A DNA stretch of 64,000 nt from Idiomarina aquatica (GTDB lineage Bacteria; Pseudomonadota; Gammaproteobacteria; Enterobacterales; Alteromonadaceae): the NCBI RefSeq assembly GCF_003987185.1, contig NZ_PIPS01000005.1, forward strand, positions 1 to 64,000, given 5' to 3'. Both the position numbers and the translations under genes were made by a program. Below the pieces are notes generated by a model. The model ran no database searches. It had not been told where the DNA came from and saw nothing but the letters and a program-made list of their open reading frames with translations. Shown here piece after piece: positions 36,211-37,548 of this stretch (within the stretch, counting starts at the first letter, position 1; each line of letters opens with the position of its first letter).

Positions 36211-36843
36211 ATGATGAAAAACTTCCTTTTTAAATTAAGTCTTGTAGTCGTTCTGTTACTGTCTATACGTACGGTTTCAGCAAATGTGTCACTGGTTGTA
36301 TTAGGAGATAGCCTGAGTGCCGGCTATGGCCTCTCCAGCCAACAAACCTGGGTCGCTGAATTACAACGTCGCTGGCAACAAAGCCACCCCGACTATGCCA
36401 TTATCAACGCCAGCATCAGCGGCGAAACCACCACCGGCGGCCTGCGTCGGCTAGAAGGCATTCTCGAACGTCATAAGCCCGATGCATTATTTATCGAACT
36501 CGGAGGCAATGACGGACTTCGTGGCTTTAACCTCAGCACAGTACGCGCCAATCTGGAACAAATTATCGACCAAGCTCGTGCAGAAGGCGTTAAAGTGGCC
36601 TTAAGCCAAGTGATGGTACCACCTAACTATGGCCAACGATTTGCACAACAGTTCACGGGTTTGTATGAGGACATCGCAAAAGAAAAAAACGTACCACTGA
36701 TCCCATTCTTCATGCAGCCCTTAATCGAAGAAAGTAGCGACTACGTACAAAACGATGGCATCCACCCCACCGCCGAAGCACAACCCAAAATAGCCGACTT
36801 CCTCGAGCCCCACCTACTCGAGCTACTGCAACGCGCGAAGTAG
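36211..36843 (+). CDS. tesA: Periplasmic GDSL esterase, thioesterase I / lysophospholipase L1
   Basis: The 210-residue SGNH hydrolase has a signal peptide (residues 1-24, ending RTVSA) and the catalytic blocks GDSLSAGYG (Ser34), SGETTTGG, GGNDGLRG and DGIHPT. Homologues hydrolyse acyl-CoA, lysophospholipids and aryl esters in the periplasm. Two adjacent in-frame ATGs (36211, 36214) are possible; both abut the divergent ybbA start, so the promoter must lie inside ybbA. The stop TAG is part of the GTAG of the following REP hairpin. Confidence 0.93.
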   Translation: MMKNFLFKLSLVVVLLLSIRTVSANVSLVVLGDSLSAGYGLSSQQTWVAELQRRWQQSHPDYAIINASISGETTTGGLRRLEGILERHKPDALFIELGGNDGLRGFNLSTVRANLEQIIDQARAEGVKVALSQVMVPPNYGQRFAQQFTGLYEDIAKEKNVPLIPFFMQPLIEESSDYVQNDGIHPTAEAQPKIADFLEPHLLELLQRAK

Positions 36844-36862
36844 CTCGCGCCTTCGGCGCGAG
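36840..36862 (+). repeat. REP-type hairpin, left copy
   Basis: GTAG (36840-36843) followed by stem ctcgcgcc / ggcgcgag with loop ttc. A GTAG tetranucleotide followed by a palindrome is the form recognised by REP-associated tyrosine transposases. An inverted copy lies at 37363-37384. The GTAG overlaps the tesA stop codon, and the hairpin may also end tesA transcription. Confidence 0.65.
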
Positions 36863-36871
36863 GGTTGGGTA

Positions 36872-37084
36872 TAGCTTAACAAACATAGCAGCATAGCGGC
36901 CCTTTGGAACGGACGAGCTTTATCAGGCTTTACGTCCTCGTTTTCAAAGGGACGCTGCAAGTACATCCATGTACGCTTGTTTCCGGCCATCCATGGCCTC
37001 CAACACCCTTTGAAAACGAGGACGCAAATCCTGACGCTAGCCCATACCAAAGGACCGCTATTATGGATTTTATTCGTTAAGCTA
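36872..37084. repeat. Large nested palindrome, unit 1
   Basis: Nested inverted repeats: tagcttaac (36872-36880 with 37076-37084), agcggccctttgg (36895-36907 with 37047-37059, one mismatch) and a perfect 19-bp stem (36933-36951 with 37006-37024). The 54-nt tip (36952-37005) folds into two small hairpins, gtacatccatgtac and ggccatccatggcc. The tip is the inverted homologue of the tip of unit 2, while the stems differ in sequence. No credible gene lies in it. Confidence 0.8.
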
Positions 37085-37111
37085 TCAGAGCGTTTCCGTA
37101 TTACAAAGGCT

Positions 37112-37356
37112 TGGCAGAGGATTAAATGGCGTTGGTAAAAAAATTGCAGCGATGCAATGGTATGGGCTAATTGCGTGGTAGGTATCGAGGGGGCTTTAGC
37201 CAGAAATGTTGGAGGCCATGGATGGCCGGAAACAAGCCACACGGATGTGCTTGGAGCGGTTTCTGGCTAAAGCCCCCTCGGTGCCTGCCAAAAGCAATTA
37301 GCCCATACCATTGCTTCAGCTCAACTTTGTGAGAGCAGCCATTTAATCCCCTGCCA
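37112..37356. repeat. Large nested palindrome, unit 2
   Basis: Nested inverted repeats: a 19-bp arm (37112-37130 with 37338-37356, one mismatch), a perfect 21-bp arm (37154-37174 with 37294-37314) and a perfect 21-bp inner stem (37186-37206 with 37260-37280). The 53-nt tip (37207-37259) contains ggccatggatggcc and a second small hairpin around cggatg. Relative to unit 1 the tip is inverted and nearly identical over its first 30 nt. Confidence 0.8.
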
Positions 37357-37362
37357 GGCCCC

Positions 37363-37384
37363 CTCGCGCCAAGGCGCGAGCTAC
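37363..37384 (-). repeat. REP-type hairpin, right inverted copy
   Basis: On the minus strand GTAG (37381-37384) is followed by stem ctcgcgcc / ggcgcgag with a 2-nt loop. Together with the left copy it brackets a block of about 545 bp, in the manner of a BIME (paired inverted REPs). Confidence 0.65.
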
Positions 37385-37395
37385 GGATTTTGGGC

Positions 37396-37421
37396 ACAAA
37401 AAAACCGCCGGATGGCGGTTT
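37396..37421 (-). terminator. Terminator of the tRNA operon
   Basis: Stem aaaccgcc (37402-37409) / ggcggttt (37414-37421), loop ggat. For minus-strand transcripts the A-run at 37398-37404 supplies a U-tract. It closes the Ala-Glu tRNA operon. Confidence 0.85.
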
Positions 37422-37429
37422 GTGCAGTA

Positions 37430-37492
37430 TGGCGTCCCCTAGGGGATTCTAACCCCTGTTGCCGCCGTGCCAAATAGGAGCGCGGTGTCCTT
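37430..37492 (-). pseudogene. Decayed tRNA-Glu copy
   Basis: The 3' two-thirds of tRNA-Glu is recognisable: acceptor 3' strand with encoded CCA (tgg at 37430-37432), T-arm, variable region and anticodon 3' strand. The T-loop TTCGAAT has become TTAGAAT, the anticodon loop is replaced by a longer unrelated sequence, and the D-arm and 5' acceptor strand are gone. It is the last member of the tandem array, just before the operon terminator. It cannot make a functional tRNA. Confidence 0.8.
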
Positions 37493-37548
37493 TGGACAAC
37501 GCCTCACGGCATGCGAGCTTGGGTAAGGATTTTTACTTGCAGAATTAG

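Follow-up and report, generated by a model that had tools for sequence, protein, structure and literature searches.

The gap between tesA and the tRNA-Glu/Ala cluster in the window, which is the whole analysed stretch of 64,000 nucleotides from Idiomarina aquatica (contig NZ_PIPS01000005.1), is filled by two long quasi-palindromes, referred to here as unit 1 and unit 2. The features of the locus are given below, where R1 is the covariance model described further on and TwoAYGGAY is the Rfam family RF01731.

36840..36862, left of the unit pair: small GTAG-footed, REP-like hairpin with 14-nt arms, an inverted copy of the right one
36865..37090, minus (GGA-loop strand): unit 1, long hairpin; R1 match at 36929-37029 minus, 108.3 bits; TwoAYGGAY 29.1 bits, minus
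36961..36998, minus: tip of unit 1, read directly from the sequence; motif also found by pattern search
36961-36974, minus: tip hairpin 2 of unit 1, GUAC-AUGGAU-GUAC
36985-36998, minus: tip hairpin 1 of unit 1, GGCC-AUGGAU-GGCC
37108..37360, plus (GGA-loop strand): unit 2, long hairpin; R1 match at 37183-37282 plus, 102.5 bits; TwoAYGGAY 30.0 bits, plus
37214..37249, plus: tip of unit 2, read directly from the sequence; motif also found by pattern search
37214-37227, plus: tip hairpin 1 of unit 2, GGCC-AUGGAU-GGCC
37238-37249, plus: tip hairpin 2 of unit 2, CAC-ACGGAU-GUG
37363..37384, right of the unit pair: small GTAG-footed, REP-like hairpin, an inverted copy of the left one
37398..37422, plus: terminator-like hairpin, directly 3' of tesA in empty sites

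Folding spans about 36871-37085 in unit 1 and about 37108-37360 in unit 2. The inner arms are 29 nt long with 93% complementarity in unit 1 (36923-36951/37006-37034) and 31 nt long with 90% complementarity in unit 2 (37176-37206/37260-37290); the inner stem of either unit pairs without mismatch over a core of about 20 bp, and outer arms follow beyond it, which in unit 2 measure 67 nt with 78% complementarity. The two tips are identical over 31 nt in opposite orientation (36975-37005 and 37207-37237), and the inverted match reaches 91% over 53 nt. The sequence-only reading had described two long foldbacks between tesA and the tRNA genes, perfect inner stems of 19-21 bp with further arms outside, and a nearly identical tip of about 54 nt in opposite orientation, and this description holds, with coordinates accurate to a few bases. 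None of 200 dinucleotide shuffles equalled the fold stability of either unit, and the folding z-scores were -12.4 for the minus strand of unit 1 and -17.0 for unit 2 with RNA energies, and -10.2 for the plus strand of unit 1 with DNA energies. Small hairpins of the GTAG type also adjoin other units. To the right of the pair, 37430-37510 holds an extra decayed copy of tRNA-Glu, which shares 40 nt at 95% with a true tRNA-Glu and received no ARAGORN call. As well, the 12-mer TAGCCCATACCA is common to unit 1 (37038-37049) and unit 2 (37299-37310), while the matching places in G013 deviate from it in both units; this looks like exchange between the two units.

Among the 18 genomes with tesA that were compared at this locus, G000, G013 and G010 carry units between the stop codon and the terminator, while in the remaining 15 this gap is short and holds no tip. 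Because these 15 sites are empty, the unit pair at tesA is an insertion. Relative to the small GTAG hairpins that flank it, the window pair is inverted as a whole in G013; G010 carries a different unit pair. At other loci, two units stand opposite one fused unit, or different stems occupy the same place, and one unit of G008 faces a 19-nt gap in G014.

The tip recurs on other stems within the genome of the window, where 14 covariance-model matches were found, and it is commoner still in the sister genome G013. Folded copies of the tip stand mostly on long stems of their own, with few exceptions. A pattern search of genus loci revealed 55 cases of two A-N-GGA-Y loops on stems, with a spacing that is always 23-25 nt. 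The covariance model R1 was built from 39 of 56 loop-pattern copies and, since its training copies carried ANGGAY loops, it is biased to such loops. At an E-value of 1e-3, R1 found 8-32 copies in each of 14 of the 19 genus genomes, and five genomes were without elements. At 1e-4, 62 of 295 order genomes (18 of 100 genera) and 46 of 274 class genomes (41 of 222 genera) were positive; as 13-14 candidates were scored per genome in these two scans, their copy numbers are lower bounds. When 150 candidates were scored, nine of 12 chosen genomes were positive, with 12 to 66 copies. The sequence-only reading had suggested a covariance-model search of relatives and had named a lack of other copies and of conserved pairing as an outcome that would speak against it; copies with conserved pairing were found. 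Moreover, a loop-pattern scan of named genomes returned at least 117 stretches; 42 of the 80 matches listed, counted by hand, belong to Marinobacter, and the other carriers among the matches listed include Halomonas, Stenotrophomonas, Pseudomonas, Shewanella, Oceanisphaera, Alloalcanivorax and Pectobacterium. One viral contig carries the loop pattern. In three genomes (loci L314, L315 and L316), copies cluster within about 15 kb, surrounded by housekeeping genes, rpmA, ispB and mdh among them, as named by eye.

Structure is kept more than sequence in this family, and the sequence of the stem is almost free. In a 39-row alignment, 91.6% of the pair cells are paired, versus 61.0% in shuffled and 39-50% in slid controls, and changes on both sides occur in 23 of 23 stem pairs and four of eight tip-hairpin pairs. 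For the 39 elements compared from G000 and G013, the mean identity is 82% in the tip versus 39% in a 24-nt arm, and in six copies of G013 the 53-nt tips are identical but the arms diverge past the innermost bases. At the tesA locus, the stems are largely preserved between the sister species G000 and G013, with 79 of 86 pairs unchanged in unit 1 and 78 of 105 in unit 2. The altered pairs comprise five double changes and nine single-side changes that keep the pair, 15 pairs broken by substitution, of which unit 1 has three and unit 2 has 12, and five that lost one side; given these broken and lost pairs, the outer-arm pairing is not tightly held at the scale of sister species. It is puzzling that different stems carry an identical 53-nt tip within one genome, yet sister species largely retain the stem at a given locus. 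In L054, two copies 1.3 kb apart have a common stem, and one subfamily has part of the stem in common, which favours descent with paired change over foldback-primed copying of the flank, but leaves the different stems under the identical tips of the six copies unaccounted for.

The two strands of the stems are not equivalent. With G-T and A-C penalised equally, mismatches on the GGA strand of the genus set amount to 151 G-T versus 25 A-C, and the ratio of G-T-richer to A-C-richer elements is 50:8 in the genus, 32:3 in the order and 51:25 in the GTDB set. Counted by bases, the GTDB set shows a weak excess of G-T (123:87, p 0.016), and since the copies are related, the p-values of these mismatch counts are not strictly valid. 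For the innermost 22 pairs summed over six sets, the counts are 166 G-T versus 43 A-C. The asymmetry indicates that it is the GGA strand that functions in folded form, and it fits RNA and single-stranded DNA alike, as folded DNA also tolerates G-T better than A-C. Together with the double changes in stem and tip pairs, this one-sided excess bears out the proposal of the sequence-only reading that selection acts on structure.

The loops of the tip resemble binding sites of the regulator CsrA. In CsrA sites, the N of A(N)GGA is free or absent, and the small RNAs CsrB, CsrC and RsmX/Y/Z present GGA in hairpin loops fitting CsrA. Both the A(N)GGA motif of CsrA sites and the GGA hairpin loops of CsrA-binding small RNAs are discussed in PMC4333381. 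In a set of 163 elements that was not fetched by loop pattern, though the training of R1 leans to such loops, 147 show A(N)GGA in each of the two loops, with 3 bp or more of stem below, and thus the two or more hairpin-loop sites expected of a CsrA-sequestering RNA; most of the remaining 16 hold A(N)GGA on a shorter stem, and a few are without the motif. Any of T, G, C and A can stand for the N, with T and G prevailing in loop 1 and T, G and C in loop 2; the position is missing from loop 1 in 15 cases and from loop 2 in two. The units share the GGA hairpin loops with CsrB, CsrC and RsmX/Y/Z, but differ from them in having two sites on one long stem, many dispersed copies and no promoter signal. 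The csrA gene is present in all 19 genus genomes, with or without elements, so co-occurrence of csrA and elements is uninformative; the genome of the window (about 3 Mb) has three csrA-family matches (C2:12750, C4:160527 and C2:146025). CsrB was found above its cut-off in none of the 19 genus genomes, and the one weak match lies in the element-free G017, at a GGAT-rich CsrB-like stretch (L257 1450-1860, 31.7 bits, below the Rfam cut-off) whose DNA has no match in the other genus genomes. With this single weak match and no pattern, a trade-off between CsrB and the elements was discarded.

The sequence-only reading knew of no named element with this build, a statement that does not stand, as TwoAYGGAY (RF01731, clan CL00106) has the same build, though the window units score below its cut-off. 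Shared features are two A-Y-GGA-Y-like hairpins, a variable outer stem, many copies per genome and, in some genomes, neighbours in (-)(+) arrangement as in the window family. The RF01731 loops are present on an outer stem in both units (AUGGAU and AUGGAU in unit 1, AUGGAU and ACGGAU in unit 2). At a relaxed threshold, RF01731 matched the GGA strands of unit 2 (30.0 bits, E 0.011) and unit 1 (29.1 bits, E 0.018), short of the gathering score of 43 bits, at which it found no match in 16 loci. In a table from 2010 (PMC2864571), TwoAYGGAY is given as a probable RNA for which a cis-regulatory role is improbable, and its sources are human gut, gamma-proteobacteria and Clostridiales. In 2014 it was proposed to bind CsrA, with a tandem GA noted in a stem (PMC4333381). 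The portions of the literature covered by our search name the family nowhere outside the TwoAYGGAY papers.

RF01731 was positive in 17 of 274 class genomes, 13 of them above the cut-off, and in none of 14 control genomes, and many of its loci fold as the same fork on a long stem. R1 gave 10 matches in nine of 30 RF01731 loci, and five loci (L287, L290, L291, L304 and L306) are both over the Rfam cut-off and matched by R1 at E 2e-11 or better. The genomes positive for R1 (46) and for RF01731 (17) overlap in three (G385, G497 and G529), and 60 of the 274 are positive with either model; R1 found no match in the RF01731-positive G337, G469 and G579. The R1 family and RF01731 are treated here as sister clades of one kind, so that an orphan Rfam RNA gains a large sister clade in gamma-proteobacteria, whose pairs have a fixed geometry, whose empty sites are clear and whose copies number 8-32 per genus carrier and up to 66 elsewhere.

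Neighbouring elements are arranged in a preferred geometry. Within 1 kb, the (-)(+) arrangement, in which the 5' ends of the GGA strands face each other, was counted 18 times in the genus, nine times in the order and 22 times in the GTDB set, compared with zero, three and zero for (+)(-) and one, four and two for tandem neighbours. An overlapping genus set gave 16, zero and four, respectively. RF01731 matches in G469 and G579 are also (-)(+) neighbours, and one class locus has (+)(-) units about 820 nt apart. The units lie near gene ends, and 31 of 58 classified genus units are between convergent genes.

Signals of autonomous transcription were sought in 121 single units with simple consensus scores, which revealed no promoter (median score 5.2 versus 5.1 on the mirror side), while T-runs are rarer on the expected side (7% versus 14%); the promoter and terminator of its own that a CsrA-sequestering RNA would have were thus not seen in these units, and an autonomous small RNA with sigma-70 promoter and terminator was set aside. 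For single units between tandem genes, called from open frames and not from curated annotation, the sense to antisense counts in three sets were 13:18, 8:2 and 6:9. Since this sense bias is inconsistent, a simple sense 3'-UTR element was also rejected. The sequence-only reading had considered a hairpin-specific transposase; for the Y1/RAYT family of such enzymes, PF01797 genes fail to track the elements within the genus, as seven of 14 carriers are without a match and four of five element-free genomes have one, and a RAYT/Y1 transposase was dropped as the mover.

The units are hairpins of TwoAYGGAY-like build whose two loops are of the CsrA type; the family is dispersed, and its members frequently stand as inverted pairs. 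We give an even chance to the explanation that they form a divergent clade of TwoAYGGAY-like candidate CsrA decoys, dispersed as paired hairpins. Each unit would be a structured RNA of the TwoAYGGAY kind, from a clade scored below the Rfam cut-off here, whose long stem of almost free sequence would present two small A(N)GGA-loop hairpins fitting CsrA, and a single CsrA dimer could hold both. The elements are gained, lost and rearranged as DNA, and their frequent 5'-to-5' pairing would mean that transcription from either side yields one unit with its GGA strand as RNA; a distributed decoy, or sponge, that titrates CsrA would be the likely outcome. The broken pairs between G000 and G013 (15 plus five one-sided, versus five double changes), the weak GTDB base count, the five element-free genomes, the 16 loci below the Rfam cut-off and the training bias of R1 on loops count against this RNA decoy. 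Moreover, no promoter, terminator or consistent sense bias was seen, so that transcription of the units is presumptive, and the alternative is a mobile DNA hairpin that acts in a strand-specific way. Such mobile palindromic DNA, whose GGA strand would fold single-stranded and whose tip would be the site for a putative recombinase or transposase, is conceivable if somewhat unlikely. Recognition of a single folded strand is seen in attC sites and IS200/IS605 ends, and attC sites of integrons, as folded single strands, have conserved structure and variable sequence like the units, which differ in their forked A(N)GGA tip. The presence, absence and rearrangement at the same loci speak for mobile DNA, as do the absent promoter and inconsistent sense bias, the fixed 5'-to-5' pairs, some of them around genes, and the identical tips on different stems, and the G-T asymmetry is compatible with it; the failure of Y1/RAYT genes to track the elements weighs against it, and so does the N of the A(N)GGA loops, whose freedom or absence resembles CsrA sites and for which we know of no reason in a DNA site.

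The location of the units near gene ends, frequently between convergent genes, would also suit REP-like 3'-end hairpins that block exonucleases or transcription and carry their loops incidentally, but protection needs a stem only, whereas here the A(N)GGA loops are preserved and the tip is far more conserved than the stem, which makes such a role improbable. REP, BIME and REPIN sequences are described in PMC2817692 and PMC8266576 as dispersed extragenic palindromes, often in inverted pairs. The units are like these RAYT-associated repeats in being dispersed, extragenic and paired, and unlike them in their long stems of free sequence, conserved forked tip and lack of Y1 association. An intra-transcript switch, in which read-through RNA would form kissing contacts between AUCCAU loops in one unit and AUGGAU loops in its partner, could draw on the complementarity of the loops of units 1 and 2 on one strand and on the frequency of pairs, but as many units are single, it is very improbable. 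A combination of the preferred CsrA decoy with DNA mobility, namely a self-dispersing genome-wide decoy that spreads as strand-specific DNA hairpins, whose inverted pairs are kept because they give CsrA-binding RNA either way and whose stems are renewed or diversify between sites while the tip stays fixed, is an unlikely extension. If CsrA binds the tips, the dose of a global regulator might partly be set by the number of dispersed hairpins, and regulator wiring could shift through the gain and loss of repeats.

Some wide pairs enclose frames that were named by eye, without search, as OsmC-like, DUF1415-like and PilZ-like. In two genomes, a relBE-like toxin-antitoxin (by eye) lies inside a wide pair (L314 16608-17768 and L315 16787-17843), and an IS110-like transposase frame (by eye, L316 7669-8781) lies inside the pair 7498 minus / 9145 plus. 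In L315 (2385-2500), the palindrome GTAGCCTGA..TCAGGCTAC splits the tip of an apparent second unit, and an end motif similar to this palindrome borders the IS110-like frame of L316.
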